Translations under genes and position numbers: made by a program
IMG/VR virus record: IMGVR_UViG_3300048930_000381
Span: 1 to 35,865 of that record
DNA: 35,865 bases
DNA from: a virus
Reading direction: 5' to 3' (one strand)
In this document: positions 9,081 to 35,865 of the stretch, piece after piece
Layout: each line of letters opens with the position of its first letter
Position numbering within the stretch: position 1 is the first letter of the stretch
Notes under the pieces: model-generated
What the model was told of the DNA's origin: nothing
Database searches by the model: none
What the model saw: only the letters and a program-made list of their open reading frames with translations

Positions 9081-9100
9081 TGCCTGGTCCTTTCGGTCAA

Positions 9101-9126
9101 GAAAAAGGCCCGCATTCGGCGGGCCT
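9101..9126 (-). terminator. Rho-independent terminator between protease and capsid genes
   Basis: On the minus strand an 8-bp GC stem (AGGCCCGC/GCGGGCCT, loop CGAAT, 9106-9126) is followed at once by TTTTTC. It lies in the 84-base gap after the protease stop and before the capsid start, in the direction of late transcription. Read-through or a separate capsid promoter would be needed. Confidence 0.8.
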
Positions 9127-9164
9127 GGGGGTTGAGCCTCGCGGCTCGGGGAACGCGGCAGGAC

Positions 9165-9893: not shown

Positions 9894-10156
9894 GGCTTGG
9901 CCTCCTCGGCGGTGCTGGCGGTGCTGGCGGTGCTGGAGGCCTCGGCCTTGCGCGGGCGCTCCTTGGGCACAGGCAGCAGCGGCTGAAAGCCGTCACGGCT
10001 GAGGTAGGTCACGCGGCTGGCGGCGGGCCGCAGCGCCAGGAACTCGGCGCGCAGATCCTTCAGTTCGGCAGCGCTCAGCGGTTCGCGGCCGAAGATCACG
10101 TCCGACGACAGGCCGCGGATGTAGAGCTCGCGGATCTCGCAGTCTTTCAGTGCCAT
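9890..10156 (-). CDS. Small protein between portal and protease
   Basis: 88 residues, MALKDCEIRELYIRGLSSDV, with GAAAGGA as Shine-Dalgarno. The second half is Pro/Ala/Ser-rich, ending with the short repeat STASTASTA. Phages of this group often carry a small gene here, but no function is known to me. Its stop overlaps the protease GTG (GTGA). Confidence 0.6.
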   Translation of the reverse strand: MALKDCEIRELYIRGLSSDVIFGREPLSAAELKDLRAEFLALRPAASRVTYLSRDGFQPLLPVPKERPRKAEASSTASTASTAEEAKP

Positions 10157-10166
10157 GCTCGTCCTT

Positions 10167-13207: not shown

Positions 13208-13632
13208 TGAACCTGGGCGCCTGGGCTCAGCAGGCTGTCCCACTCGGTGCCGCGCGCTGCGGTCACCGCGTCGGCGTTGGCCTGCGCCTTCTTGCCGATC
13301 GGCTCAGCCTTCGCAGAGCCGGCACCATGCGCGGCTGGCAGCGGCGGCACGGCCTGCGCGGCTTCGTGCTGCAGATAGGCCCTGGCCGCAGAGCTGCTGC
13401 CCTTCTTGGCCGCCGCGTGCAGCGCCTGCAGCACCTCCATGCGCCGCGCGATGGCGCCTCCTGAAAGCTCGACCTCGAAATGCTTCTCCAGGGTGTCGCG
13501 GGCGATGCCCAGGGCCGTGGCGATGTCGACATGGCGCATGCCGCCACCGGCCGCGATGGAAACCTGGCGCCGCTGGGCAGCCGTGGGGGCGAAAGCCGGG
13601 CGCCCTCGCTTCCGGGCTACGTTCGCAGGCAT
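13204..13632 (-). CDS. terS: Small terminase subunit
   Basis: 142 residues, MPANVARKRGRPAFAPTAAQRRQV. An N-terminal helix-turn-helix ('MRHVDIATALGIARDTLEKHF', residues ~32-52) should bind the packaging site; a basic start and Ala-rich middle region for oligomerisation follow. It directly precedes the large subunit with a four-base overlap. A CGGAG Shine-Dalgarno precedes the ATG. Confidence 0.88.
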   Translation of the reverse strand: MPANVARKRGRPAFAPTAAQRRQVSIAAGGGMRHVDIATALGIARDTLEKHFEVELSGGAIARRMEVLQALHAAAKKGSSSAARAYLQHEAAQAVPPLPAAHGAGSAKAEPIGKKAQANADAVTAARGTEWDSLLSPGAQVQ

Positions 13633-14229: not shown

Positions 14230-14305
14230 TGGATGCGGAGGCAGGACTCGAACCTGCGACCTCGTGGTTATGAGCCACGCGCGCTACCTGCTGCGCCACT
14301 CCACT
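14230..14305 (-). tRNA. tRNA-Met (anticodon CAT), phage-borne
   Basis: Cloverleaf on the minus strand: acceptor AGTGGAG/CTCCGCA, D-stem GCGC/GCGC, anticodon stem CGTGG/CCACG with loop CTCATAA, T-arm GCAGG-TTCGAGT-CCTGC, and an encoded 3' CCA. The first acceptor pair (A:A) is unpaired. It could be elongator Met or an Ile2 tRNA needing lysidine; the sequence alone does not decide. Confidence 0.88.
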
Positions 14306-23857: not shown

Positions 23858-24094
23858 ATGCACGACTTCCCGAACGCGATGCCGGCACTGCCGCGCCGCA
23901 TGGACGAGGAAACGATCGCGCGGCTTCGCGCCGCCGAGGGCCAGATCGACGACGAGCACGACGCGGCGCGGGACTACGAGTCCGAGGACGGGCGCGATGG
24001 CGCAGAGTTCGGTCCGTTCTCATGCCGCCTGATGTACGTCTGCATGCTGATCGTCGCCGGCATTGGCGCGGCTGTGCTCTGGTGGCCGCGGTGA
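23858..24094 (+). CDS. Small C-tail-anchored protein
   Basis: 78 residues; charged helical N-terminus (MDEETIARLRAAEGQIDDEHDAARDY) and one C-terminal membrane helix (LMYVCMLIVAGIGAAVLWW). It starts one base after the previous stop and overlaps the exonuclease GTG by four bases. Function unknown. Confidence 0.6.
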   Translation: MHDFPNAMPALPRRMDEETIARLRAAEGQIDDEHDAARDYESEDGRDGAEFGPFSCRLMYVCMLIVAGIGAAVLWWPR

Positions 24095-24939
24095 ACGCGC
24101 CCGAGAAGCTGCCGATGGGGTTGGTGCGCGGAATGCGGGCCGAGGACTACCACGCCATCGCCGCCATGTCGGCGGGCGGCCTTAAACGCATGCGCCAGAG
24201 TCCGGCGCACTTCTTCGGAATGCAGCTGGACCCGAACCGGCCACCGCCCGGGGAGCCGACGCCGGCCATGAAGAACGGTACGCTGGTTCACTGCGCGATC
24301 TTCGAGCCCGAGGCGCTGGCCGAGCGCTACGTCGTGAAGCCGGAAGGCATGAACTTCAGCACGAAGGACGGTAAGGCCTGGCGTGATGCGCAGACGGCCG
24401 AGATCATCGACGCCGTGCAGATGCAGGCCGCGCAGACTCAGGCCGCCGCGATTCGCGCCCTGCCCGACATCGCGCCGCTGCTGGCCGACGGCTATGGCGA
24501 GGCGTCCGCATTCTGGGTCGATGAGCAGACCGGTGAACTGTGCAAGTGCCGGCCCGATTGGACGAGCCCGACCGGCGAAGGCGTGATTCTCGTCGACGGC
24601 AAGACCTGCCAGGACGCCAGCCCCGAAGGCTTCGGGCGTGCCATCTGGAACATGAGCTACCACCTACAGGCCGCGTGGTATGCGGACGGCTTTCAGACAG
24701 CGACCGGCCTGCGCGTGCACGGCTTCGTGTTCGCCGCCGTCGAGTCGGCCTGGCCGCACGCCGCAGCTGCTTACATGCTCGGCGACGACGTGATGGACGC
24801 CGCGCGCCGCGAGAACCGGCGCCTGCTCAACCGCTACGCCGAGTGCAAGCGCATCGGCATCTGGCCGGCCTACGGGTCTGCCGTTCAACTGATCAACCTG
24901 CCCGCTTGGGCGCAACGACAACTGGAGAACGCTGAATGA
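24091..24939 (+). CDS. RecE-like PDDEXK exonuclease (DUF3799/YqaJ type)
   Basis: 282 residues from a GTG in a GTGA overlap. It should resect duplex DNA to give 3' tails for the annealing protein encoded next. Active-site motifs in order: 'GTLVHCAIFEPE' (His67), Glu137 in 'GEASAFWV', Asp156 in 'CKCRPDW', 'LVDGKTC' (Asp169, Lys171) and 'QAAWY' (QxxxY at 193-197), as in RecB-type nucleases. Standard two-gene recombination module with the following gene. Confidence 0.9.
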   Translation: MNAPEKLPMGLVRGMRAEDYHAIAAMSAGGLKRMRQSPAHFFGMQLDPNRPPPGEPTPAMKNGTLVHCAIFEPEALAERYVVKPEGMNFSTKDGKAWRDAQTAEIIDAVQMQAAQTQAAAIRALPDIAPLLADGYGEASAFWVDEQTGELCKCRPDWTSPTGEGVILVDGKTCQDASPEGFGRAIWNMSYHLQAAWYADGFQTATGLRVHGFVFAAVESAWPHAAAAYMLGDDVMDAARRENRRLLNRYAECKRIGIWPAYGSAVQLINLPAWAQRQLENAE

Positions 24940-25970
24940 ACGAAGTAATCGAGTCACCATTCGCCGCGCGCACCGCCGTCGCGCCGCACGACAGCGCCGG
25001 CAGCCGCCAGAACCAGAGCCGCGAGCTGGCGGAGACGCAGACGAAGTACCTGATGGCCGAGCGCTTCCCGCGCGACGAGGTCGCCGCGATGGACCGTATC
25101 CTCAATGCCTTCTCGCGCCCGACGCTGGCGGAAAAGGCCGCCTACCAGTTCGCCCGCGGCGGCAGCGACATCGCCGGCCCGAGCATCCGGGCGGCCGAGG
25201 CCATCGCGCAGCAGTGGGGCAATATGGACAGCGGCTGGCGCGAGCTGCAGCGCGGCACCGATCCGAGCGGCGTGCCGTTCTCCGAGGTCGAGGCCTTCTG
25301 CGTGGACCTGCAGAGCCGCAACAGCAAGCGCCTGCAGTTCATCGTGCGCCACTGGCGCGACACGAAGCAGGGCGGCTACAAGCTCAAGGACGAGCGCGAC
25401 ATCTACGAGCTGTGCGCGAACCAGGCCCAGCGCCGGCTGCGCGCGTGCATCCTGGCATCGATCCCGGGCGACGTGACAGAGGCCGCGATGCTGCAGGCCG
25501 ACACGACGCTCAAGGCGAAGGCCGACACCAGCCCCGAGGCCATGCACAAGATGCTGGAGGCCTTCGAGCCTTACGGCGTGAAGAAGGAGCACATCGAGAA
25601 GCGCATTCAGCGCCGGCTCGACGCGATCACGCCGGCCCAGGTAGTGAGCCTGAAGCGCATCTATGCCAGCCTGCGCGACGACATGAGCACGCCGGCCGAG
25701 TGGTTCGACATGGGCGAGGCGCCGCCGCCGGCAGATGCTGTCGGCAGCCTGGAGAAGGTGCGCGCGGCGACCGCGGCGAAGAAGACGCCGGCCGCCAAGA
25801 CCACGCAGACCACCAAGACAGCCGCCGACTACATCGGCGAGATCGATGGCGCCACGAGCGCGGAGACGGCATCGCTGGTCCTGGACGAGGCAAAGGACGT
25901 GCTGACGTCAGAGGAGTGGCAGAAGGTCAGTGACGCCTACAACATGGCGTGGACGGAAGGCGCGAAGTGA
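24936..25970 (+). CDS. Putative single-strand annealing recombinase
   Basis: 344 residues, MNEVIESPFAARTAVAPHDS, in ATGA overlap with the exonuclease. Core 'ARGGSDIAGPSIRAAEAIAQQWGNMDSGWRELQRG' and 'ACILASIPGDVTEAAMLQADTTLKA' recur in phage proteins encoded beside RecE-like nucleases. The C-terminus is a Lys/Ala/Thr-rich linker (AAKKTPAAKTTQTTK) and a small acidic domain. I infer RecT/Bet-type annealing from the gene pair; the family cannot be confirmed by eye. Confidence 0.72.
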   Translation: MNEVIESPFAARTAVAPHDSAGSRQNQSRELAETQTKYLMAERFPRDEVAAMDRILNAFSRPTLAEKAAYQFARGGSDIAGPSIRAAEAIAQQWGNMDSGWRELQRGTDPSGVPFSEVEAFCVDLQSRNSKRLQFIVRHWRDTKQGGYKLKDERDIYELCANQAQRRLRACILASIPGDVTEAAMLQADTTLKAKADTSPEAMHKMLEAFEPYGVKKEHIEKRIQRRLDAITPAQVVSLKRIYASLRDDMSTPAEWFDMGEAPPPADAVGSLEKVRAATAAKKTPAAKTTQTTKTAADYIGEIDGATSAETASLVLDEAKDVLTSEEWQKVSDAYNMAWTEGAK

Positions 25971-26179
25971 CCCGCCTCACCGAAGCCGAAACAGACGCAG
26001 CCATCGAAGGCGCCTGGCAAGCGCCGGGCCCGCGGATCATCTTCGCGGAGCCCGAGCCGGATGACTCGCCGTGCGAGAACTGCGCTCGGCTGCAGGTCGA
26101 GCTCGACGCCGCACGCCAGCAGATCGAGCACCTCAACCGCCTGGCCCTGCGCGCACGAAGCGCGACGGCCGGGCGCTGA
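25967..26179 (+). CDS. Small protein with CxxC motif and coiled coil
   Basis: 70 residues from a GTG overlapping the previous stop. Acidic segment with one CENC motif (DDSPCENCARLQVELDAARQQIEHLNRLAL) followed by a coiled coil. Common as a small gene after recombinases; function unknown. Confidence 0.55.
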   Translation: MTRLTEAETDAAIEGAWQAPGPRIIFAEPEPDDSPCENCARLQVELDAARQQIEHLNRLALRARSATAGR

Positions 26180-26300
26180 CCCATCACCGCAGCGGCCGGA
26201 AGCCCGGTGAGGCCAATCCTCCCTGCCGCCAATCAGCCCCGGGTTGCGCCGGGGCCGCTGCACCTTTCCATCGCCACAGCCTGAAAGGCACACGCACACC
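26180..26300 (+). promoter_or_regulatory. Intergenic stretch with GC hairpin
   Basis: The only sizeable gap in the rightward operon. It holds a 7-bp stem (GCCCCGG/CCGGGGC, loop GTTGCG, 26236-26255) with no U-run, so it is not a classic terminator, and a GAAAGG Shine-Dalgarno for the next gene. Confidence 0.4.
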
Positions 26301-26918
26301 ATGAACGCCTTCGACATCCCCGCAGAGACCCGCGTCAAGATCACCAAGGCCACGCCGCGCAAGGAAACGCACGGGAAAGAACTCGTGCAAGCCATCAGCC
26401 TGCGCATGGAATGGTGGCCGACCGACAACGGCGCCGTGAACCTGCTGCACGAAGGCCTGCAGGACGCGATCTGGTGGACGCCGCCGGAGGCCGCGGCCCA
26501 GGCCGATCTCGATGGTGTTGACCCGGTGAAGAAGCACCGCCGATGCCCGACGCTGCACATGCCGCTGAAGGTCGAGACGGCGTTCTCCGGCTACACGCTG
26601 ACCATCGACCACGGCATCGACGAGACGACAGAGCTCGAGCTCTACGGCTGTGGCCTGGACAAATTCGCTGTCGACGCGAAGGAAGGCGGCAGCGTGGCGA
26701 TCTCGTGGTCGCTGGCCTCGAATGCGTCGATCACGCCGCAGCTGGTCGGCGCGCTGTGCGGCCTGGAGGGGTGCGAGGTGGTGGTGACGCTGACGCCTCC
26801 AGCGCCTGACTCCGAAGTGATCGACGGCACCGGTGCCGCGTTCTCGGCGGATCACCCGGAGGCCGGCGACATGTTTGCCGCGGCGCATGGCGATGCGGTC
26901 GAGGGCGCGGAGGCTTGA
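26301..26918 (+). CDS. Last phage gene before the integron, unknown function
   Basis: 205 residues, MNAFDIPAETRVKITKATPR. Beta-rich first part (QAISLRMEWWPTDNGAVNLLHEGLQDAIWW), then 'LELYGCGLDKFAVDAKEGGSVAISWSL', and an acidic C-terminus (DHPEAGDMFAAAHGDAVEGAEA). Its style matches proteins encoded after phage annealing recombinases, perhaps a DNA-recombination accessory. Its TGA (26916-26918) lies one base before the predicted attC crossover point, so the integron begins exactly at the gene end and leaves it intact. Confidence 0.7.
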   Translation: MNAFDIPAETRVKITKATPRKETHGKELVQAISLRMEWWPTDNGAVNLLHEGLQDAIWWTPPEAAAQADLDGVDPVKKHRRCPTLHMPLKVETAFSGYTLTIDHGIDETTELELYGCGLDKFAVDAKEGGSVAISWSLASNASITPQLVGALCGLEGCEVVVTLTPPAPDSEVIDGTGAAFSADHPEAGDMFAAAHGDAVEGAEA

Positions 26919-27012
26919 ACGGGCTGGTGAGCCGACAAGGAGGCGCTGATGAGTGACCGAAGCGAGACGAAGCCGCCCGCCGACGAAGGTCGGCTCGACC
27001 GGCGGGTTAGGC
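26914..27012 (-). repeat. attC 12 (distal, phage junction)
   Basis: Outer core on the minus strand is GTTCAAG rather than GTTRRRY, as expected where the last cassette meets foreign DNA; inner core GTTAGGC on the plus side (27006-27012). Arms GGT-GAGCCGA and GGTCGAGCCGA show the extra base that sets minus polarity. The loop carries AAGGAGG (26937-26943) and the ATG of the next ORF. Confidence 0.88.
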
Positions 27013-27278
27013 GCGTGGTGTGCGCGGCGCTGCGGGCGGCGGACGGACGGCTGCTGCTGGGCATACGCCACTACAGCACTGACATGCACGCGCAGCTTGC
27101 GCGCCGCGACGACCGCAACCGCTTCCAGCACTTGAGCGGTGACGACCAGGGGTTTGTGGATCAGCACGGCGTCTACATGACTCGGCGCGAGGCCTACGAC
27201 GTTGCATTGCAAGCGGGCCAGATCGTGAACCACGACGCCTGCGAGATTGGGCGCCTGTACTCAGAGGCGTTGTATTGA
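26949..27278 (+). CDS. Phage-type protein whose start lies in attC
   Basis: 109 residues. The only usable start is ATG 26949 inside the attC loop, five bases after a perfect AAGGAGG. Residues 1-21 (MSDRSETKPPADEGRLDRRVR) are attC-encoded; the conserved part follows: 'CAALRAADGRLLLGIRHYSTDM', 'DDQGFVDQHGVYMTRREAYDVALQAGQI', 'GRLYSEALY'. That DQGFVDQ/LYSE pattern belongs to a small protein family found in many phages; function unknown. It is the first of two ORFs in cassette 12. Confidence 0.8.
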   Translation: MSDRSETKPPADEGRLDRRVRRVVCAALRAADGRLLLGIRHYSTDMHAQLARRDDRNRFQHLSGDDQGFVDQHGVYMTRREAYDVALQAGQIVNHDACEIGRLYSEALY

Positions 27279-27312
27279 ACACAGGCCACGCTGTGGCCGG
27301 AGCGGAGTAACG
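27276..27312. repeat. Possible decayed attC or cassette leader
   Basis: Between the two ORFs of cassette 12 is an 8-bp palindromic stem (GGCCAC/GTGGCC) followed by CCGGAGCGGAGTAACG, which resembles the leader found after other attC sites. Arms and cores are missing. It may be a fused-cassette scar. Confidence 0.35.
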
Positions 27313-27483
27313 ATGGAGAACCCGACAACTGCCGAAGACATTGCATTCTGGGCGCAGATCGTTTTAGCCAATGTCTGGGCTGCGTCCGGCGCCGAATGGT
27401 GGGCAGTGCCCTTTATCTTGATGGCGCTTGCGCTGCGCCTTCCGTACTGGCTGCGCGCGTGGAAGCGGGGCCGCGTGGCCTAA
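27313..27483 (+). CDS. Small membrane protein (cassette 12)
   Basis: 56 residues, MENPTTAEDIAFWAQIVLANVWAASG, with one hydrophobic helix (WWAVPFILMALALRLPYWL) and a basic end. A GGAG lies upstream. Its TAA stop is part of the next conserved core (GCCTAAC). Function unknown. Confidence 0.6.
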   Translation: MENPTTAEDIAFWAQIVLANVWAASGAEWWAVPFILMALALRLPYWLRAWKRGRVA

Positions 27484-27564
27484 CGGGCCAGGTGAGCCGG
27501 GCGCGCGCTGATGTGTGACAACGACCCACTGCCGGAGCGCCTCGGCTCGACCTGGGGGTTAGGC
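27478..27564 (-). repeat. attC 11
   Basis: GCCTAAC (27478-27484) to GTTAGGC (27558-27564). Arms AGGTGAGCCG/AGGTCGAGCCG; extra base gives minus polarity. The loop contains an ATG (27511) that opens a leader ORF. Confidence 0.92.
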
Positions 27565-27591
27565 GTGGTTCCGAAGCGAAGGGAACGATGA
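27511..27591 (+). CDS. attC-encoded leader peptide
   Basis: 26 codons starting in the attC loop (MCDNDPLPERLGSTWGLGVV...) and crossing the right arm. Its TGA overlaps the double ATG of the following gene (GATGATGA), suggesting translational coupling. No Shine-Dalgarno as strong as in attC 12 or 5 is present. Confidence 0.4.
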   Translation: MCDNDPLPERLGSTWGLGVVPKRRER

Positions 27592-27881
27592 TGAAACTGT
27601 GGAAGGTTGACGGCGTGATGTTCGAGGTGCGCGAGGTTGAAGGCACGCCATGGCCAGGCACGGACTCAGAGGGCGACGCCTGCTACATCAACAGCCACTA
27701 TCCGACCAAGGCGGCGGCGCTGCACAAACTGGCCGATGAATGCGCGGCATGCCTACAGATCAATGCACGCACTCGGGCGCAGTTGCAACAGCAGATTGCC
27801 GCGCTGAACCAGCAAGACCTCGACGCGAAAGATGCCTACAGCGATGCCATGAGGCAACTGCTGCTGATGCGGGACGCCTAA
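27588..27881 (+). CDS. Hypothetical cassette protein (cassette 11)
   Basis: 97 residues (MMKLWKVDGVMFEVREVEGT), start choice 27588 or 27591. N-terminal half is a small beta domain; the C-terminal half is a coiled coil with two Cys (ADECAACLQINARTRAQLQQQIAALNQQ). GAAGGGAACG precedes the ATG. The stop TAA is in the next attC core. No known function. Confidence 0.7.
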   Translation: MMKLWKVDGVMFEVREVEGTPWPGTDSEGDACYINSHYPTKAAALHKLADECAACLQINARTRAQLQQQIAALNQQDLDAKDAYSDAMRQLLLMRDA

Positions 27882-27934
27882 CGCAAAGCTAAACGGCGGG
27901 CCGTAGGCCCGTCCGTTTGAGCGACCTGTTAGGG
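27876..27934 (-). repeat. attC 10
   Basis: GCCTAAC (27876-27882) to GTTAGGG (27928-27934), 59 bp with a short GTA loop. Arms GCTAAACGG and GCTCAAACGG; extra C on the canonical side. Confidence 0.95.
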
Positions 27935-27958
27935 CTGTATTTGCAACGAGGACAACGA

Positions 27959-28708
27959 ATGCTGGAAACCGTGACCATTGGGCAAGCCACACTGCACTGC
28001 GGTGATTGCCGCGAAGTGCTGCCGACGCTGGCGAGCGTGGACGCGGTGATAACCGACCCGCCCTACAGCGAACGGTGCCACGCGGGCCACGATGCCGGCG
28101 CCTCGAAAGCACGCGACAGCGCCGAACGGCAGGCCCTGGGCTACCGCGCGCTGACGCTTGAAGACGTGGCGTACTTTGCCGAGCAGTACACGCGGGTGTG
28201 CAGCGGCTGGGTGGTGTGGATGACCGACAGCGACTTGGCGCTGGCTGTGCGCACCGCGCTGGAGAAGGCCGGGCGCTATGCGTTTGCACCGCTGCCCTTT
28301 TACCAGCCGGGGCGCGCTGTGCGCCTGAGTGGCGACGGCCCCAGCTCGTGGACGGACTGGATCGTGGTGGCGCGCACCAAGGCGCAGATGAAGTGGGGCA
28401 CGCTGCCGGGCGGCTACGTGGCCGGGCCTGGCTGGAACGACAAGGCACGCATGGGCGGCAAGCCGACCCTGCTGATGGACGCGCTGGTGGCGGACTACTC
28501 GCGGCCCGGCTACACGGTGCTGGACACCCACATGGGCGCGGGCACGACCGGCGTTGCATGTGCCCGCGCTGGGCGGAAGTTCATAGGCTGCGAGGTTGAC
28601 CGCGCGGCCTTCGATTTGGCGTGCCAGCGGATAGAAGCCGCTTACGCGCAAGGTTCCCTGCTGGATTTGGCACAGCCCGTGCCGGAGCAGCAGGGCATGG
28701 GGTTTTGA
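27959..28708 (+). CDS. DNA methyltransferase, DNA-adenine type (cassette 10)
   Basis: 249 residues from MLETVTIGQATLHCGDCREV (ATG after GAGGACAACG). Site-specific N6/N4 methyltransferase (PF01555-like): motif IV 'AVITDPPYSERCHAG' (~31-45) first, then C-terminal SAM motif 'LDTHMGAGTTGVACARAG', where His replaces the usual Phe/Pro of DPFxGSG. 'TDSDLALAVRTALEKAG' and 'GRAVRLSGDGPSSWTDWIVVART' lie between. No paired endonuclease is visible, so it is an orphan, fitting anti-restriction or regulation. Confidence 0.9.
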   Translation: MLETVTIGQATLHCGDCREVLPTLASVDAVITDPPYSERCHAGHDAGASKARDSAERQALGYRALTLEDVAYFAEQYTRVCSGWVVWMTDSDLALAVRTALEKAGRYAFAPLPFYQPGRAVRLSGDGPSSWTDWIVVARTKAQMKWGTLPGGYVAGPGWNDKARMGGKPTLLMDALVADYSRPGYTVLDTHMGAGTTGVACARAGRKFIGCEVDRAAFDLACQRIEAAYAQGSLLDLAQPVPEQQGMGF

Positions 28709-28709
28709 G

Positions 28710-28811
28710 CCCTAACGTGGGAGCTAAGTTGGAGACGACGGCGGCACCCAAATAACCGGAGCGCGACGGCTGTGGACGCCGTTGGCTCTCAACTTGAGCG
28801 AAGTGTTAGGC
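28710..28811 (-). repeat. attC 9
   Basis: CCCTAAC (28710-28716) to GTTAGGC (28805-28811), 102 bp with extended stem. Arms GCTAAGTTG and GCTCAAGTTG. Confidence 0.93.
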
Positions 28812-28829
28812 CCCAAAGTGGAGAACAAG

Positions 28830-29168
28830 ATGGACGACAAGACGCTACTGCTAAAGGCCGCGCAAGCTGCCGGCTACGGGCTGAACGCTCGCAAGCAAAG
28901 CGAACGCGAGGCCGAGATGCCGAACGAGCCTTCGCTGTGGCTGACGCACGCGACATGGTGGAACCCGCTGACCGACAGTGGCCAGGCGCTGGACCTTGCC
29001 GTGACGCTGGAGATGGACATCGGGCAGATGCTCACCGAGGGCTGCGTGACCGTGACCGGCGTTGCCTTCGACGGCGAAGCGCTGGCGCACGACGTGCCTT
29101 GGGGTACGGACCCACGGGCCGCCACGAGGCGCGCGATTGTGCTTGTGGCCGCCGACATGGCGAACTGA
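28830..29168 (+). CDS. Phage ABA-sandwich/DUF2591-like protein (cassette 9)
   Basis: 112 residues from MDDKTLLLKAAQAAGYGLNA (GGAG eight bases upstream); a TTG in attC would add 16. 'LWLTHATWWNPLTDSGQALDLAVTLEMDIGQM' is the hallmark of small phage proteins with an alpha-beta-alpha sandwich (pattern WNPL-x-D-x-G-x-A-L-x-L-A). Widespread accessory gene of tailed phages, function unknown. First of three ORFs in the cassette. Confidence 0.78.
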   Translation: MDDKTLLLKAAQAAGYGLNARKQSEREAEMPNEPSLWLTHATWWNPLTDSGQALDLAVTLEMDIGQMLTEGCVTVTGVAFDGEALAHDVPWGTDPRAATRRAIVLVAADMAN

Positions 29169-29185
29169 CAAGGAAGACTTGACAC

Positions 29186-29329
29186 ATGGCATGCCCAAAG
29201 TGCGGTTGCAAGACCGTGTACCAGCTCGATGACGAAGACGACCCGCAGGACGACCGGCTGCAACGCTGCGCAGCCTGCGGCGAAGTGTTCGACCTCGACG
29301 ACCATGCAGAGGAAGACGACGATGAGTGA
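29186..29329 (+). CDS. Small zinc-ribbon protein (cassette 9)
   Basis: 47 residues: CPKCGC near the start and CAACGE after a short linker form a four-Cys zinc ribbon, flanked by Asp/Glu-rich segments (DDEDDPQDD, EEDDDE). Similar small ribbons bind nucleic acid or polymerase subunits. Ends in an eight-base overlap (ATGAGTGA) with the next ORF. Confidence 0.75.
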   Translation: MACPKCGCKTVYQLDDEDDPQDDRLQRCAACGEVFDLDDHAEEDDDE

Positions 29330-29762
29330 CGGTGTGAACGCTTCAGGCCCGGCCCATCTGGCGCCGCAACCAGCCCCAGGGCTGCACTTCGATGCGCGCG
29401 GCGTGCTGGTGCCTGTGGAGCCCGACCCGTGGGTGCGGCTGATGATGCTGGCGAACGAGTACGCGGGCCATGTGGCCGACGCGGCGCAGCACCGGGCCGA
29501 GAGCCGCGCCGACATTTCGCGCACTGCTGCGCTGAAGACGCTGGGCAAGATGCGCGAGGTGTTCTTTGCGCACTGCAAGGAAGTGGAGCAGGGCACACGG
29601 CACGCATGCTCTATTGCCGTGTGGATGACGCTGCAGGAAGCGCTGGCGCCCGACGCCGACGACAAGGGCCTGGACGGCTGGATGCGCGAAGCAGAGCAGC
29701 GCGTGAAGCTGGGGCCTAACGGCCGAAGCAAGCGGGCCGCCGAAGGCGGTCCGCTTGGCTGA
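29322..29762 (+). CDS. Hypothetical protein, C-terminus encoded by attC (cassette 9)
   Basis: 146 residues, MSDGVNASGPAHLAPQPAPG, overlapping the zinc-ribbon ORF. Helical core 'WVRLMMLANEYAGHVADAAQHRAESRADISRTAALKTLGKMREVFFAHCKE'. The last ~16 residues (GPNGRSKRAAEGGPLG) come from attC 8, so they are unlikely to matter. No function recognised; third gene of a multi-gene cassette. Confidence 0.68.
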   Translation: MSDGVNASGPAHLAPQPAPGLHFDARGVLVPVEPDPWVRLMMLANEYAGHVADAAQHRAESRADISRTAALKTLGKMREVFFAHCKEVEQGTRHACSIAVWMTLQEALAPDADDKGLDGWMREAEQRVKLGPNGRSKRAAEGGPLG

Positions 29763-29772
29763 GAAGTTATGT
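29714..29772 (-). repeat. attC 8
   Basis: GCCTAAC (29714-29720) to GTTATGT (29766-29772), 59 bp. Arms AGC-AAGCGG and AGCCAAGCGG. Confidence 0.93.
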
Positions 29773-29778
29773 GGCTGA

Positions 29779-29976
29779 ATGAACGCGAGAGCCCTCCGCC
29801 GCCTACGCCTTGCCGGAGCGCTGCTGCGGCCGGCCATCGCAGACGTTGGCGAAGCGTTGCGTAGAGTCGAAGCGCTCCCGCACCCGGAACGTGAGAAGTT
29901 GCGCGAACTAGTGGACTGGGCAGAGGAATACGAACTGGCCTCGCCACCAGGAATCGAACCTGGATCTGCGCCTTAG
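29779..29976 (+). CDS. Doubtful ORF running into the antisense tRNA
   Basis: 65 codons, MNARALRRLRLAGALLRPAI, helical. The final part (LASPPGIEPGS) is the standard artefact of translating the opposite strand of a tRNA T-arm. It may be a short real gene truncated by the tRNA, or noise. No clear Shine-Dalgarno. Confidence 0.25.
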   Translation: MNARALRRLRLAGALLRPAIADVGEALRRVEALPHPEREKLRELVDWAEEYELASPPGIEPGSAP

Positions 29977-30010
29977 GAGGGCGCCGTTCTATCCGTTGAA
30001 CTACAGCGAG
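29936..30010 (-). tRNA. tRNA-Arg (anticodon CCT) inside a cassette
   Basis: Full cloverleaf on the minus strand: acceptor CTCGCTG/TGGCGAG (two wobbles), D-stem GTTC/GAAC, anticodon stem GCGCC/GGCGC with loop CTCCTAA, T-arm CCAGG-TTCGATT-CCTGG, discriminator G and encoded CCA (29936-29938). 72 nt without CCA. It reads AGG, a rare codon in this GC-rich DNA. It is oriented with the attC polarity, opposite to the ORFs. Its 5' end lies seven bases from the next ORF. Confidence 0.93.
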
Positions 30011-30016
30011 AGGACT

Positions 30017-30349
30017 ATGAGCAAACCGACCGGAATCTACATCAACGCGCCGCTGCCGGACTACACGTATTTGTTCCGCTGGTGGATGACCGACGACGAA
30101 GACCCAGCGGGCACGCAAAGCCAGGTGGTGGTGGTGCGCAGTGACCACCCGCTGACGATGAAGGCGCTGAAGCAGCACCTCGAAGACCTCGGCGCCAAGC
30201 CGGAGCGCTTCGAGCTGGTGGAGGTGCCGCGGAACTGCGCAGCGAAGCTGGACACTTGGGAGCCATTCGTCGAGTTCGCCGTGGCCAACGATTCAACAGT
30301 GCAGCGCGTGCCGCTGCTGAAGGAGTGGTGGCATGACCACCAAGCGTGA
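30017..30349 (+). CDS. Hypothetical cassette protein (cassette 8)
   Basis: 110 residues from MSKPTGIYINAPLPDYTYLF; GAGAGGA precedes the ATG. Compact alpha-beta pattern ('YLFRWWMTDDEDPAG', 'VVVVRSDHPLTMKALKQHLEDLG', 'FELVEVPRN'). No known family. Its end overlaps the RMF-like gene by 17 bases, implying joint translation. Confidence 0.7.
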   Translation: MSKPTGIYINAPLPDYTYLFRWWMTDDEDPAGTQSQVVVVRSDHPLTMKALKQHLEDLGAKPERFELVEVPRNCAAKLDTWEPFVEFAVANDSTVQRVPLLKEWWHDHQA

Positions 30350-30554
30350 AGCCCGTCAGGAGGCCGCCTACCAGGAAGGGCGCCGCGCCGCTGACGCCGG
30401 CCGCTGCGGGCACTCGCCATACGACAGCGCAGACCCCGGATGGGCCTGGATCGGCGGGTACGAAGAGCGCATGGGTGAGCTGGGCTCGCCGGCAGTGCGG
30501 ATCTTCTGCTGGCGCTGTGAACAGCTGGGCGACCCGCAGCGTGCGGCCACATAA
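30333..30554 (+). CDS. RMF-like small protein (cassette 8)
   Basis: 73 residues. 'AAYQEGRRAADAGRCGHSPYDSADPGWAWIGGYEERM' matches the ribosome modulation factor pattern (A-x-x-x-G-x-x-A-x-x-G-x-x-x-x-C/P-Y...W-x-x-G-W/Y). RMF dimerises and silences ribosomes in stationary phase; phage and plasmid relatives are common. Two C-terminal Cys (FCWRCEQ). The stop TAA is part of the next attC core. Confidence 0.68.
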   Translation: MTTKREARQEAAYQEGRRAADAGRCGHSPYDSADPGWAWIGGYEERMGELGSPAVRIFCWRCEQLGDPQRAAT

Positions 30555-30650
30555 CGTTCGAGCTAAGCGGGGCCAAACGGCCGCGCAGGAGTAGGAAGAT
30601 GCAAACACTGCTGGCCGCCGTTTGGGCTCCGCTTGAGCGAGGGGTTAGGC
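30549..30650 (-). repeat. attC 7
   Basis: ACATAAC (30549-30555) to GTTAGGC (30644-30650), 102 bp. Arms GCTAAGCGG and GCTCAAGCGG. The loop carries AGGAG (30587-30591) and ATG 30599, in frame with the next gene. Confidence 0.95.
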
Positions 30651-31072
30651 GTCTGTTTCCGAAGCGAGAGGAAGACCGAATGACGATGACACAGCGATAC
30701 GCCGGAATGCTGCGGCGCCACGCAGGCGAGTGGGACAAGCAGGCCATGCCGGTGCAAGCCGAGTGCGCCCGGCAAGCCGCCCGGCATATGGAAGAACTGC
30801 AAGCCAAGGTGGACGCGATAGCCAGCCCGTGGCAGCCCATTCGGACAGCGCCGAAAGACGGCTGGGGCGTGTTGGTGTTGCTGGAGGGCAGCGACATGCC
30901 GCACGGCGCACGCTGGCTGCGCGGCAAGGACGACCCGCACGCCACCGAGGCCACCGAAGGGCCGGGCTGGCACCTGACGTGGGACGGTTCGCCGGTGGCT
31001 GAGCACGACGGGCCGCGCTACTGGATGCACTGCCCCGATGACCCAGATGCTGGAGCCGATGAAGACGCCTAA
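30599..31072 (+). CDS. DUF551-like phage protein (cassette 7)
   Basis: 157 residues from the attC-loop ATG, or 130 from ATG 30680 (MTMTQRYAGMLRRH), both with a Shine-Dalgarno. The longer form adds attC-encoded MQTLLAAVWAPLERGVRRLF. Helical N-terminal part, then 'WQPIRTAPKDGWGVLVLLEG', 'GARWLRGKDD', 'RYWMHCPDDPDA', the pattern of phage DUF551-type proteins (W-x-P-I-x-T-A-P-K-D-G). Function unknown. Stop TAA lies in the next core. Confidence 0.75.
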   Translation: MQTLLAAVWAPLERGVRRLFPKREEDRMTMTQRYAGMLRRHAGEWDKQAMPVQAECARQAARHMEELQAKVDAIASPWQPIRTAPKDGWGVLVLLEGSDMPHGARWLRGKDDPHATEATEGPGWHLTWDGSPVAEHDGPRYWMHCPDDPDAGADEDA

Positions 31073-31166
31073 CGTTCGAGGTGATGCGTGACCAACGGCT
31101 GCACAGAGATTGAGGCGGGCACAGTGGACGAGGCCGTTGGGCATCGCCTCGACCGAGGGGTTAGGC
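31067..31166 (-). repeat. attC 6
   Basis: GCCTAAC (31067-31073) to GTTAGGC (31160-31166), 100 bp. Arms CGAGGTGATGC/CGAGGCGATGC: here a G-T pair replaces the usual bulge, so polarity is read from the flanks. GAGGTGAT and GTG 31088 lie in the loop. Confidence 0.85.
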
Positions 31167-31771
31167 CCCATGCGACGGCTGCGGGCTACGGCTGCATATT
31201 GGCCGACCCGCCCTGGGCGCTGACGATGGCCGGGCAGCGCAAGCGCGCGAAGGAAGGCAAGAAGCCCGAGGCGCTGCCGTACCCGACGATGACCATTGCG
31301 CAGATATGCGACATGCCTGTGGGCCAGCTTGCCACTGAGGACGCGCACCTGTGGCTGTGGACAACGAACCAGCACCTTGAGGACGGATTCAAGGTGATGC
31401 GCGCGTGGGGGTTCAAGTACCTGGCGCCGGTGCATTGGGTGAAGCCGACAGGCATGGGCAACTGGTTTGTGCACCGCACGCAGACGATGCTTTTCGGCTA
31501 CCGCGAAAAGTGCAGGTTCCCGCTGGCGCGCTACCGGCCGAACGTGTTTCACAGCGGCGACCCGAAGCGGCACAGCGAGAAGCCGGAAGCGGCCTATGAA
31601 CTGGTGGAGGCGGTGAGCCCCGGGCCGCGCTTGGAGTTGTTCGCGCGGAAGAAGCGCCACGACTGGCATACCTGGGGCAATGAGGTGCCATGCGATGTAT
31701 TCATGGGGCCTAACGCTAGGTTGAGCGGACCGCAACGGCCCGCACAGGAGGTAGAGCATGGGACAAAGTAG
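31088..31771 (+). CDS. MT-A70-family adenine methyltransferase (cassette 6)
   Basis: 227 residues from GTG 31088, the only in-frame start. MT-A70 motifs: 'CILADPPWALTMAGQ' (DPPW, ~38-52), 'YPTMTIAQICDMPVGQLATEDAHLWLWTTNQHLEDGFKVMRAWGFKY', 'HWVKPTGMGNWFVHRTQTMLFGYR', 'LELFARKKRHDWHTWGNE'. Makes N6-methyladenine in DNA. Residues 1-27 (attC 6) and the last ~20 (attC 5) are attC-encoded. It ends inside attC 5, overlapping the next ORF by 14 bases. Confidence 0.92.
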   Translation: MTNGCTEIEAGTVDEAVGHRLDRGVRPHATAAGYGCILADPPWALTMAGQRKRAKEGKKPEALPYPTMTIAQICDMPVGQLATEDAHLWLWTTNQHLEDGFKVMRAWGFKYLAPVHWVKPTGMGNWFVHRTQTMLFGYREKCRFPLARYRPNVFHSGDPKRHSEKPEAAYELVEAVSPGPRLELFARKKRHDWHTWGNEVPCDVFMGPNARLSGPQRPAQEVEHGTK

Positions 31772-31809
31772 CCGGGCCGTTGTGGGTCCGCTCGAACCGT
31801 CAGTTAGGC
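31708..31809 (-). repeat. attC 5
   Basis: GCCTAAC (31708-31714) to GTTAGGC (31803-31809), 102 bp. Arms GGTTGAGCGGACC and GGTTCGAGCGGACC, one extra C. Loop has AGGAGGT (31746-31752) five bases before ATG 31758. Confidence 0.95.
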
Positions 31810-32066
31810 CGCGCGGCTTGGACAGCGTGCGCCTGACCGACAGCGACCGTGTGCGCGACGGGCTGGAGGACATGCTGACGGCCGCCATAGGCGACCACGG
31901 ATATGACTTGGGCTTCGTGGAGCCAGGGCTTGCGCTGTTGGTGATCGAGGCCGCGAAGCGCGCAGAGGACCGCGAGGACTGGTTCCCGCGCGGCAAGTGG
32001 GCCACGGTGCAGGCGATGCAGGAACGCACTGAGCGCGAACTGCGATGGCTGTTTCGTGCGGCCTAA
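31758..32066 (+). CDS. Hypothetical protein starting in attC (cassette 5)
   Basis: 102 residues. ATG in the attC loop follows a perfect AGGAGGT; residues 1-18 (MGQSSRAVVGPLEPSVRP) are attC-encoded. Then 'LTDSDRVRDGLEDMLTAAIGDHGYDLGFVEPGLALLVIEAAKRAEDREDWFPRGKWATVQAMQERTERELRWLF', a helical acidic domain of unknown function. Stop TAA is in the next core. Confidence 0.75.
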   Translation: MGQSSRAVVGPLEPSVRPRGLDSVRLTDSDRVRDGLEDMLTAAIGDHGYDLGFVEPGLALLVIEAAKRAEDREDWFPRGKWATVQAMQERTERELRWLFRAA

Positions 32067-32123
32067 CGTGGGAGCTAACTTGCGGGCCGCCTGCGGCCCG
32101 TCAAGTTGAGCGACGGGTTAGGT
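32061..32123 (-). repeat. attC 4
   Basis: GCCTAAC (32061-32067) to GTTAGGT (32117-32123), 63 bp. Arms GCTAACTTG and GCTCAACTTG. Confidence 0.95.
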
Positions 32124-32154
32124 TTCACTGGCGGCGCACAAACAAAGGATGAAG

Positions 32155-32865
32155 ATGGCTGAGAAAGTAGTGATCGGGAACGCGGAGCTGTGGCACGGTG
32201 ACTGCCGCGAGGTGCTGCCGCTGGTGGCGTTTGATGTGCTGCTGTGCGACCCGCCTTACGGCATTGACGGTGGCAACGGTGGCGATGCGCGCGACTTCAA
32301 CAAGGGCGGGTATGCGCTGACCGGCTGGCAGGACACGGAGGAATACATACGCTGGTGCGTGGTGCCCGTGCTGACGCTGGCCGTAGCCAGGGCAAAGCGC
32401 GCCGCGATTACGCCAGGCGTGCGAAGCATGAGCTTCTACCCGCGCCCCGCCGACGTAGGCTGCTACTGGACGCCTGCCGCCGCCACCCACGGGCCTTGGG
32501 GCTTCACGACTTTTCAGCCGATCCTGTACTACGGCAAGGACTACCGCGCCGGCAAGGGCGCCTTGCCTTCTGGCCGCGCACTGACAGAAGCCGCTGAGAA
32601 GAACGGCCACCCGTGCCCAAAGCCGCTGAACGCTTGGCAGTGGCTGCTGGACAAGGTGGCAGAGCGTGACGATGTGGTCTTTGATCCTTTCATGGGCAGC
32701 GGCACCGGGGCGGTGGCCTGCCACCAGATGGGCCGGCGCTTTGTCGGTGTTGAAATGGAGCGCGCGTACTTCGACATTGCGTGTGAACGCCTGCATCGTG
32801 CAATGGCGCAGGGGCAACTGCTGCCCGAACCACCGCGCGAATGCGTGCAGGAGGGTCTGTTGTGA
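32155..32865 (+). CDS. DNA methyltransferase (cassette 4)
   Basis: 236 residues from MAEKVVIGNAELWHGDCREV (AAAGGATGAAG before the ATG; ATG 32149 is less well placed). 'LLCDPPYGIDGGNGGDARDF' (motif IV), 'GVRSMSFYPRPADVGCYWTPAAATHGPWGFTTFQPILYYGKD', 'HPCPKPLNAWQWLLDKVAE' and SAM motif 'FDPFMGSGTGAVACHQMG'. Beta-class N6-adenine or N4-cytosine enzyme without a partner nuclease. Related to the enzymes at 27959 and 34361 but clearly diverged. Confidence 0.93.
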   Translation: MAEKVVIGNAELWHGDCREVLPLVAFDVLLCDPPYGIDGGNGGDARDFNKGGYALTGWQDTEEYIRWCVVPVLTLAVARAKRAAITPGVRSMSFYPRPADVGCYWTPAAATHGPWGFTTFQPILYYGKDYRAGKGALPSGRALTEAAEKNGHPCPKPLNAWQWLLDKVAERDDVVFDPFMGSGTGAVACHQMGRRFVGVEMERAYFDIACERLHRAMAQGQLLPEPPRECVQEGLL

Positions 32866-32866
32866 A

Positions 32867-32925
32867 ACCTAACGTTGGAGCTAAGCGGGACGCCGAAGGC
32901 GGTCCGCTTGAGCGACCAGTTGTGC
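32867..32925 (-). repeat. attC 3
   Basis: ACCTAAC (32867-32873) to GTTGTGC (32919-32925), 59 bp with a GAA loop. Arms GCTAAGCGG and GCTCAAGCGG. Confidence 0.95.
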
Positions 32926-32949
32926 GGCTGTAGCCGAAGCGAGAGAACG

Positions 32950-33168
32950 ATGGCACGCAAGAGATTCAGATGGACCCGCAGCAAGTACAAGCACGCGGCG
33001 TCGCTGCTTCGGCTGATGTCGCGGCAGTTGAACTATGAAAGCTGCCCAGACCAGCCGCCGCCAGTGGTGCAGGAGCTTGTGGATCTGTGGAACCGCTACG
33101 CGCGAACTCCAGACCCGCTGCTACGGCCGTTGAGCGAACGCCTTAGCGACCGAGAGATTCCTTTCTGA
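32950..33168 (+). CDS. Hypothetical protein (cassette 3)
   Basis: 72 residues, MARKRFRWTRSKYKHAASLL, very basic at the start, ending RPLSERLSDREIPF. GAGAGAACG precedes the ATG; this leader (CCGAAGCGAGAGAACG) also follows other attC sites. May bind nucleic acid; unknown. Confidence 0.6.
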   Translation: MARKRFRWTRSKYKHAASLLRLMSRQLNYESCPDQPPPVVQELVDLWNRYARTPDPLLRPLSERLSDREIPF

Positions 33169-33177
33169 GAGGACACC

Positions 33178-33594
33178 ATGAAGCTGGAAGAGTATTGCGG
33201 CGTGTGGCAGACCGTGAGCGAGCGGGAGACCAGCGACGGCACCCGATACAAGATTTGCCAGTGGCGCTGCCCCAACTGCGACAAGGCGTGCTCTTCACTA
33301 GAGCTGGCCGGCGAGTGGTGCCACGGAGACAGCCTGGTGCAGAGCTTCAAGGAAGGCGAGCACCGGATCATGTGTAGTTCGTGCTGGCTGGGTGATGGCT
33401 ACTTGCCGGCGCTTAACAAGGCGGTGAACGCACTGGCCTGCGCATGTGTAGGGACGCCAGAACCCGAGAGGTGGGAAGCCTACCAGGCAGTGTGCGCCGC
33501 CGTTCGTTCAGAAGCTCGGCGGCGTCCGCACCTTCAGGCCGACGAACGCCACAAGCCGCACAACGCCAGAGTTCAGCAGGAGCCACCGGCATGA
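33178..33594 (+). CDS. Zinc-binding protein (cassette 3)
   Basis: 138 residues, MKLEEYCGVWQTVSERETSD. 'CQWRCPNCDKACSSLE' and 'IMCSSCWLGDGY' give a plausible four-Cys zinc site across residues ~20-65. Second half is helical. The final ~12 residues (NARVQQEPPA) come from attC 2. TGA overlaps the next ATG (ATGA), so translation may pass across the cassette boundary. Confidence 0.7.
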   Translation: MKLEEYCGVWQTVSERETSDGTRYKICQWRCPNCDKACSSLELAGEWCHGDSLVQSFKEGEHRIMCSSCWLGDGYLPALNKAVNALACACVGTPEPERWEAYQAVCAAVRSEARRRPHLQADERHKPHNARVQQEPPA

Positions 33595-33657
33595 CCATGT
33601 TGACCGAAGCCACGACAGCGGAAGCCGGTGGCTCTCTGCTGCAACGAAGTGTTATGC
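33558..33657 (-). repeat. attC 2
   Basis: GCACAAC (33558-33564) to GTTATGC (33651-33657), 100 bp. Arms CAGCAG-GAGCC and CAGCAGAGAGCC, one extra base on the usual side. An ATG (33654) lies in the core GTTATGC and another in the loop (33591). Confidence 0.88.
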
Positions 33658-34202
33658 CGCTGCGTGCGGCGTATGCAGACCCGCCGTATCTTGGGTGCGG
33701 CGTGAAGCACTATGGCGCCTTGCACGAGAAGGCCGCAGACTTCGACGACCCGGAAACGCACCGCAAGCTGATAGCGCGCCTGTGCGACGAGTTCGACTGC
33801 TGGGCCTTAAGCCTACACGAGCCGAGCCTGCGCACGCTGCTGGCTATGTGCCCCGAGGATGTGCGTGTCGGCAGCTGGAACAAGCCGTTCGCGTCTTTCA
33901 AGGCGAACGTGACGCGGGCCTACACCTGGGAGCCCGTGATCTTTAGGTTTGCAGCATCAAGGCCACGCACGCGAGAGCAGCCGACTTGGCGCGACCACTT
34001 GAGCGCGCCGATAGCGATGCGCAAGGGATTTCCAGGGGCCAAGCCGGAAGCCTTCAGTTTCTGGATTTTCGAGGGGATGAACCTGCAACCGACAGACCAA
34101 TTCTGCGATGTCTTCCCCGGCAGCGGTGCCGTGACGGAGGCATGGCACAAGTGGAGCCAACGCCAGCAGCCGGTGCAGACCGGGCTGTTCGCTGCGGCAT
34201 AA
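33591..34202 (+). CDS. DNA methylase-like protein (cassette 2)
   Basis: 203 residues from ATG 33591 in attC 2, coupled to the previous stop; or 182 from ATG 33654 in the core. Domain opens 'LRAAYADPPYLGCGVKHYG' (motif IV); 'CWALSLHEPSLRTLLAMCPEDVRVGSWNKPFASFKANVTRAYTWEPVIF' follows; SAM motif 'DVFPGSGAVTEAW' is near the end. This compact group occurs in phages and actinobacteria. Substrate base is unknown; N6-adenine is likely. Stop TAA is in the next core. Confidence 0.85.
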   Translation: MTMLTEATTAEAGGSLLQRSVMPLRAAYADPPYLGCGVKHYGALHEKAADFDDPETHRKLIARLCDEFDCWALSLHEPSLRTLLAMCPEDVRVGSWNKPFASFKANVTRAYTWEPVIFRFAASRPRTREQPTWRDHLSAPIAMRKGFPGAKPEAFSFWIFEGMNLQPTDQFCDVFPGSGAVTEAWHKWSQRQQPVQTGLFAAA

Positions 34203-34254
34203 CGTTGCAATTAAGCGGCTGCCGTAGGCAGTCCGCTTGAATTGCGTGTTGGGC
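34197..34254 (-). repeat. attC 1 (proximal)
   Basis: GCATAAC (34197-34203) to GTTGGGC (34248-34254), 58 bp. Arms CAATTAAGCGG and CAATTCAAGCGG; extra C. The GTTGGGC core equals that of attI. Confidence 0.96.
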
Positions 34255-34360
34255 CTGGTGCCGGAGCGTGACGGACTATGCACGCCACGAGCGGATGCCG
34301 TACCCGGCATGCGCGGACTGTATTAGGAGCCTTGCGAAGCAGGGCGATTGAAAGGCAGCG

Positions 34361-35056
34361 ATGACCAAGGAAGTGAAGATCGGAACCGCCACGCTCTACC
34401 TCGGAGACTGCCGAGACGTGCTGGCTTCGCTGCCGCGCGTGGACCTGATGCTGACGGACCCACCCTACGGCATAGGCATTGACGGGCAGAAGGAAAGCGT
34501 GAACCGCAACCCGAAGCACAACCGCAAGGCGCACGACTTCATGGGCTGGGACAACGAGACGCCAGAGCGCCTCGTGTTTGAACTGCTGCGCTACAAAAGC
34601 GCGGGCCAGATTGTGTGGGGGGGCAACTACTTCACCGACAAGCTGCCGCACCCCACGAAGGGCTGGCTGTTTTGGGACAAGGGGCAGCGCGGGCTGACGA
34701 TGAGCGACGGCGAACTGGCGTGGACCAGCTTTGACTTCCCGACACGCGCCTACACCCTGAACCGCGTGGCGCTGCAAGAGGACGGCGGCACCGAGCACCC
34801 GACACAGAAGCCGCTGCGGCTGATGACGTGGTGCCTGGGCCTGGTGCCCGACGCGCGCACGGTCTGCGACCCGTTCATGGGCAGCGGGACCACCGGGGTT
34901 GCGTGCGCGCAGCTCGGGCGCGAGTTCATCGGCATTGAACGCGAGCCGCGATATTTTGAGATTGCCTGCCGCCGCATTGAACAGGCGCAGGCACAAGGGA
35001 CGCTCCTGGTGCCGGAACTACCGCCGGTGCCGGAGCAAGCGAGCCTTGAGGTTTGA
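34361..35056 (+). CDS. DNA methyltransferase (cassette 1, next to attI)
   Basis: 231 residues, MTKEVKIGTATLYLGDCRDV; AAGG lies upstream and a ~106-base leader separates it from attC. 'LMLTDPPYGIGIDGQKESVN' (motif IV, ~33-52), 'WGGNYFTDKLPHPTKGWLFWDKGQRGLTMSDGELAWTSFD', 'HPTQKPLRLMTWCLGLV', SAM motif 'CDPFMGSGTTGVACAQLG'. Beta-class adenine methyltransferase of the phage Dam-like type, no partner nuclease. First position by attI implies the latest insertion. Transcription here points toward attI and intI. Confidence 0.94.
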   Translation: MTKEVKIGTATLYLGDCRDVLASLPRVDLMLTDPPYGIGIDGQKESVNRNPKHNRKAHDFMGWDNETPERLVFELLRYKSAGQIVWGGNYFTDKLPHPTKGWLFWDKGQRGLTMSDGELAWTSFDFPTRAYTLNRVALQEDGGTEHPTQKPLRLMTWCLGLVPDARTVCDPFMGSGTTGVACAQLGREFIGIEREPRYFEIACRRIEQAQAQGTLLVPELPPVPEQASLEV

Positions 35057-35057
35057 G

Positions 35058-35128
35058 GCCCAACTTCAATTCGACGACACCACCTGTCCGCTAACCAGCC
35101 CGACCTGTCCGCTAACCGAGGCACCCGC
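35058..35128 (-). other. attI recombination site and intI leader
   Basis: Core GTTGGGC on the minus strand (35058-35064), 64 bases before the intI ATG. Two exact 15-bp direct repeats (ACCTGTCCGCTAACC at 35082-35096 and 35103-35117, 21-bp period) resemble the accessory IntI-binding repeats of attI1. No clear -35/-10 pair was assigned. Confidence 0.78.
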
Positions 35129-35865
35129 ATGGAAGCCGCCACCGTTATCACGACACCCACCGCGACAAAGCCCGCCAAGCTGGAAGACCAGATTCGCGCA
35201 GCGTGTCGCGTTCGGCACTACTCGCTGGCCACGGAGCGCGCCTACGTGTCGTGGTATCTGCAGTTCGTCCGCTGGGCCGGCCTCAAGCACCCGGCCACGC
35301 TGGGCGGCGACCGCGTGGAGGCGTTTCTCTCCTACCTGGCCGGCGAGCCGCGCAACGTCAGCGCAAGCACGCAGCGCCAGGCCTTGGCCGCGCTGCTGTT
35401 CCTGTACCGCCAGGTGCTCGGCCTGCAGTTGCCGTGGCTGGACAACATCACGCGAGCCAAGCAACCGCAGCGCCTGCCCTGCGTGCTCAGCCAGGACGAG
35501 GTGCGGCGCCTGCTGGCCGCCCTGCCACGCACCAGCGCCGGGCTAGCCTTGTCGCTGGCCTACGGCACCGGCATGCGCCTCATGGAGATCCTGCGCCTGC
35601 GCGTCAAGGATCTGGACTTCGACCGGCGCACCATCACCGTCCGTGGCGGCAAGGGCGACAAGGACCGCACCACCATGCTGCCGCGTCACCTCGATGCCGG
35701 CCTGCGCGCGCAGTTGGCGCACCGGCGCCGTCTGCACGACGTCGACCTGGCCCGCGGCATGGTCGACGTCGAACTGCCGCACGCCTTGGCCACCAAGTAC
35801 CCCACCGCCGCGCGTGAATGGGGCTGGCAGTGGCTGTTTGCCGCCGCCGACTACAGCTCCTGCCC
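35129..35865 (+). CDS. intI: Integron integrase IntI (C-terminus outside window)
   Basis: 245 residues visible. Tyrosine recombinase that joins attI and folded attC sites. N-terminal SAM-like domain 'HYSLATERAYVSWYLQFVRWAGLKHPATLGGDRVEAFLSYL' (30-70), then catalytic domain with box I Arg150 in 'LAYGTGMRLMEILRLR' and beta Lys175 in 'VRGGKGDKDR'. The IntI-only insert 'ELPHALATKYPTAAREWGWQWLFAA' (about 215-239) is present and excludes an ordinary phage integrase. The HxxR and Tyr boxes lie beyond 35,865. Confidence 0.97.
   Translation, partial: MEAATVITTPTATKPAKLEDQIRAACRVRHYSLATERAYVSWYLQFVRWAGLKHPATLGGDRVEAFLSYLAGEPRNVSASTQRQALAALLFLYRQVLGLQLPWLDNITRAKQPQRLPCVLSQDEVRRLLAALPRTSAGLALSLAYGTGMRLMEILRLRVKDLDFDRRTITVRGGKGDKDRTTMLPRHLDAGLRAQLAHRRRLHDVDLARGMVDVELPHALATKYPTAAREWGWQWLFAAADYSSC

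Follow-up and report, generated by a model that had tools for sequence, protein, structure and literature searches.

Can a tRNA gene be the cargo of an integron cassette, and what might it do for the phage that carries it? This question is raised by a 35,865-base IMG/VR virus record without end repeats, analysed here over its whole length (the window), in which a first-pass annotation had described a tRNA-Arg(CCU) gene inside a cassette array. Judged from its sequence features, this tRNA is a real and unusual cassette cargo and is probably functional; our leading guess is that it simply supplies a tRNA, and the main rival is that it is a silent passenger.

ARAGORN identified a tRNA-Arg gene with anticodon CCT at positions 29936–30010 on the minus strand, and the Rfam tRNA model matched the same segment with 61.5 bits (E 3.8e-11), which bears out the annotated complete tRNA with a CCA encoded in the DNA (29936–29938). 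The gene folds into a cloverleaf with the conserved pairs, and it shares its anticodon loop, CTCCTAA, with every chromosomal tRNA-Arg(CCU) gene in the comparison. Its nearest chromosomal relative among 349 genomes of the Rubrivivax order is identical at 67 of 75 positions (89%), and nearly all the differences, as read from the alignment, lie in stems and keep the pairing. We aligned the window tRNA with 12 chromosomal tRNA-Arg(CCU) genes, most of which come from the order to which a Rubrivivax MAG, described below, belongs. Standard pairs occupy 98.5% of the cells in this alignment of 13 genes, and 13 of the 21 stem pairs show changes on both sides, compared with an average of 7.2 in shuffles and at most 4 in slid structures, a covariation that is a constraint in the chromosomal lineages and not necessarily one that has acted since capture of the window tRNA. 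The minimum free energy of the window tRNA alone was not distinctive (z −1.17). With its stems intact, the tRNA looks functional. Its 18-base anticodon arm was absent from IMG/VR in an exact search, and searches of phage and plasmid DNA matched only distant tRNAs. The window's other tRNA, a tRNA-Met(CAT) at 14230–14305, adjoins the terminase region and has an apparent A1-A72 mismatch; it could be an initiator-like or Ile-type tRNA of an unusual kind.

The tRNA-Arg(CCU) gene lies within an array of 12 attC sites (26912–34254), all canonical on the minus strand, with R''/L''/L'/R' boxes of consistent polarity. Its cassette is the interval between the attC sites at 29713–29772 and 30548–30650, both on the minus strand, and is the eighth when intervals are counted from the integron integrase gene intI, as the annotation had it. 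The first of these sites, in canonical polarity, is the attC of the tRNA cassette itself, while the second belongs to the neighbouring cassette nearer intI and forms the right border. Both carry R''/R' boxes of the GCCTAAC-like/GTTAGGC-like type. Folded as single strands, the attC sites of the array, these two included, form the attC hairpin on the minus strand with two bases bulged in the 5' arm, a C in TC-AAGC and then an A; such 5'-arm bulges resemble those in the top strands of the known attC sites aadA7 and VCR. The covariance-model scores of the two sites, 63.9 and 76.7 bits respectively, come from a model built in part on these same sites. Starting at intI, which stands at the right contig end, the attC series extends leftward in the ordinary arrangement. 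This intI gene (35129–35863, plus strand, Pfam Phage_int_SAM_4 and Phage_integrase) is cut by the contig end, and between it and the array lies a likely attI (35056–35128, minus strand), inferred from two direct repeats GGTTAGCGGACAGGT and from its position 5' of intI. The window intI is 50–96% identical to intI-like genes of other contigs, several of which stand beside attC arrays. A separate viral contig (L207) has two attC arrays of opposite polarity, at 220–2162 and 8641–12926.

Three ORFs on the plus strand share the cassette with the tRNA. A small ORF of 65 amino acids (29779–29976) has no Pfam or PHROG match, and it ends in 12 codons (ASPPGIEPGSAP) that are read from the strand opposite to the tRNA. 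An ORF of 110 amino acids (30017–30349), assigned to no family convincingly, begins 7 bases past the tRNA 5' end and has no relatives in IMG/VR, INPHARED or the 349 genomes of the Rubrivivax order. The third, of 73 amino acids (30333–30554), is the neighbour that had been called RMF-like; that resemblance stands in so far as phmmer weakly matches it to solved RMF chains from the PDB (E 0.0015), but membership of the RMF family (PF04957) does not follow, as its Pfam score of 22 bits is under the gathering score of 27.9. Neither this ORF nor the 65-residue one has relatives in IMG/VR or INPHARED. A second copy of the tRNA cassette was found in none of the collections searched (IMG/VR, INPHARED, Rubrivivax-order genomes, phage and plasmid DNA), which leaves its attC sites as the one ground for regarding this particular cassette as mobile.

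Phage genes lie on one side of the array only, because the contig ends in intI. They include the major head protein, portal and terminase large subunit (7569–13243, minus strand, assigned with PHROGs), and with these genes present and the attC sites sound, the scenario that the first-pass annotation had held in reserve, a sole chromosomal tRNA copy flanked by artefactual attC sites, falls away. Homologues of the window phage genes occur in three further IMG/VR contigs whose intI falls in the clade of the window intI (72–96% identity), capsid and portal genes homologous to those of the window accompany this clade in other contigs, and in a contig from another sample (G004) related genes for tail, head and intI follow one another as they do in the window. 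Additionally, the Rubrivivax MAG (locus L084) contains a bounded 35.6-kb prophage (33445–69064) with structural genes, three attC sites, intI and a tyrosine integrase, so that array and intI lie between the prophage ends. With intI tied to these capsid and portal genes in related contigs, and with the complete Rubrivivax prophage as a further case, we assign the window array, on these sequence relationships, to a temperate phage. Two window cassette genes, 27959–28708 and 28830–29168, have counterparts (99% and 90% identical) in a second phage integron, that of locus L038, whose intI is only 53% identical to that of the window; these identities indicate recent cassette exchange between phage integrons. 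The first of these genes, which has a Pfam N6_N4_Mtase match, is also one of three related DNA methylase-like genes in the array, the other two (32155–32865 and 34361–35056) being alike by tblastn.

To place the tRNA cassette among other cassettes, we counted 227 inter-attC intervals, 11 in the window and 216 elsewhere, in loci from IMG/VR and bacterial genomes, a sample biased to relatives of the window intI and attC. ARAGORN found a tRNA inside one of the 227, the window's own, and in 0 of the 216 others. A scan of IMG/VR with a 14-base attC pattern gave, among the matches listed, mostly non-attC sequence, from which the covariance model picked the real sites. In the open-licence papers searched, no tRNA cassette is described. 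The annotated view that tRNA cargo in cassettes is unusual agrees with both the count and this literature.

The orientation of the tRNA sets it apart within the array. The clear protein genes are on the plus strand and are inverted relative to the minus-strand attC sites, contrary to the usual orientation; the tRNA is the exception, lying in the canonical sense direction like a classical cassette gene, antisense to the ORFs and with attC polarity, just as first described. Homologues of the window cassette genes in three further loci (L020, L038 and L043) are likewise on the plus strand with attC on the minus strand, and it is on these homologous genes that the orientation claim rests, a strand call based on GC3, made for all arrays, being unreliable at low GC and used only as a hint. 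In the array region 26912–35056 and in the same three loci, the inverted protein genes run with the phage early genes toward intI. In the window these early genes (24022–26918, plus strand, by PHROGs: an exonuclease VIII-like gene, PHROG 3657 and one other) read into the array, and the inverted cassette protein genes may be served by phage transcription. For the window tRNA, no sigma-70-like promoter was seen, and the gene opposes the direction of the phage genes; expression is for these reasons only putative.

Codon use does not point to a demand for this tRNA. AGG is rare in the window, as had been annotated: 21 phage genes use it at 2.45 per 1000 codons and 17 cassette genes at 3.98, a difference that is not significant (p=0.25), and we rejected AGG demand as support for the tRNA cargo. 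ATA codons stand at 4.87 per 1000 in the cassette genes (27313–35056) and at 0.17 in the phage genes (p=8e-6), an enrichment that points to foreign origin. The suggestion that tRNA and RMF-like gene together form translation-directed cargo fares poorly: AGG is not enriched, the RMF-like match is weak and on the opposite strand, the other two cassette ORFs resemble no family convincingly, the tRNA has no promoter of the kind sought, and the cassette is without relatives in the collections examined.

In sum, the window holds an intact tRNA flanked by attC, in an array that has intI at one end and phage genes at the other, and related contigs repeat this linkage. The reading we favour, at somewhat better than even chances, is that a normal tRNA-Arg(CCU) gene is cassette cargo in a temperate-phage integron and has a plain supply role. 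The cassette tRNA would be transcribed, processed and charged in the manner usual for tRNA-Arg(CCU), would enlarge the AGG-decoding pool of the host in lysogeny or infection, and could be shuffled between integrons as a cassette. We saw no sign of a specialised mechanism beyond normal tRNA supply.

The strongest competitor, which we regard as unlikely yet a serious contender, is that the tRNA came in with a piece of host or phage DNA as the cassette arose, and is now silent or decaying. The missing promoter, the lack of codon demand and the strand opposite to the phage genes are all consistent with such a passenger, as are the reading of the 65-residue ORF 12 codons into the tRNA and the fact that no relatives keep the tRNA. 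Against this reading, the stem pairs, anticodon loop and CCA have all been preserved, and the fold is broken by no substitution.

A more specific role, which we consider improbable, is that of a replacement for lysogeny, on the model of tRNA-dependent lysogeny: integration would take place at the tRNA-Arg(CCU) gene of the host, and the cassette copy would offset the loss or reduced expression of that gene. Integration at a gene of the same isotype is seen in the Rubrivivax relative, the window contig ending before its own integrase. There, a 14-bp repeat marks the two prophage ends and matches the host tRNA-Arg(CCU) gene exactly over its bases 1–14, with the tyrosine integrase 91 bp from that gene, and the prophage separates the gene, at its 5' end, from its upstream DNA. 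Relatives of this integrase in IMG/VR have the core CCGTAGTTCA at ~90 bp from their integrase gene, which together with the prophage site gives the replacement idea its appeal, and only one match to the window tRNA was found in the Rubrivivax MAG. However, the mature tRNA is intact in this prophage, so that, in the relative at least, integration does not fail to rebuild the tRNA, and the IMG/VR records with this type of integrase, one of them 42 kb long, hold no tRNA. CCU tRNAs are, moreover, often dispensable where a UCU tRNA can read AGG.

The closest relative with a readable attP also points elsewhere. In this contig (G001, locus L164), intI (165–1166) is followed by a tyrosine integrase (1138–2337), a stretch resembling the 3' half of a tRNA-Val(CAC), and lysis-like genes, and the tRNA-Val half, in the stretch to 2405, is likely the attP; it was read by eye, and Rfam gives it no score. 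More broadly, six loci (L024, L044, L045, L047, L079 and L084) have a tRNA 2.1–2.7 kb past the intI start, a position that fits integration at tRNA genes. An extension of the replacement idea, which we hold to be slightly less probable still, is that a phage lineage integrating at tRNA-Arg(CCU) keeps its replacement tRNA as an exchangeable cassette, with stable lysogeny shuffled by the integron; if this were true, the capacity for stable lysogens would be a trait passed among phages by an integron.

It is very improbable, in our assessment, that the cassette serves counter-defence, with the extra tRNA substituting for one cut by a host anticodon nuclease. Such a role has been proposed for phage tRNAs (PMC10264068). 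The CTCCTAA loop here, however, shows no change from the chromosomal genes compared, whereas the published signature of evasion is an altered anticodon loop. That an error of assembly linked a host tRNA to the phage array is extremely unlikely, since the tRNA cassette, though seen in one contig only, is continuous in that contig with attC sites of the same array on both flanks, and the gene order around intI recurs in the related contig from another sample.

The supply reading can be set beside several known systems. Integrons and CALINs in temperate phages, some with DNA methyltransferase cassettes, have been described (Qi et al. 2023, PMC9892861), and the window resembles them in having intI, attC and cassettes inside a temperate phage genome; it differs in its tRNA cargo, of which the main text of that study makes no mention, and in protein genes inverted relative to attC. 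Like phage-encoded tRNAs in general, the window tRNA is an intact gene in a phage genome, but here the gene is bounded by attC in a cassette. Tentative parallels to tRNA-dependent lysogeny (Guerrero-Bustamante and Hatfull 2024, PMC10865867) lie in a temperate phage with a tRNA and an isoacceptor targeted by a related phage; unlike in that system, the Rubrivivax prophage leaves the host tRNA intact and has no tRNA of its own. Finally, peptide deformylase in cassettes was presented in 2025 as, to its authors' knowledge, the first gene found there that belongs to a key, conserved process of translation (PMC12690207). That cargo is likewise related to translation but is a protein, whereas the cargo here is a tRNA, and by the same statement a tRNA would be new as cassette cargo.

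These results suggest a simple test for surveys of integrons, in which a tRNA finder is applied to the DNA between attC sites. Cassette arrays are usually seen as stores of protein genes, and a tRNA cassette would extend integron cargo to non-coding RNA. It would also connect phage tRNAs, phage-borne integrons and prophage integration at tRNA genes, fields that seldom meet.
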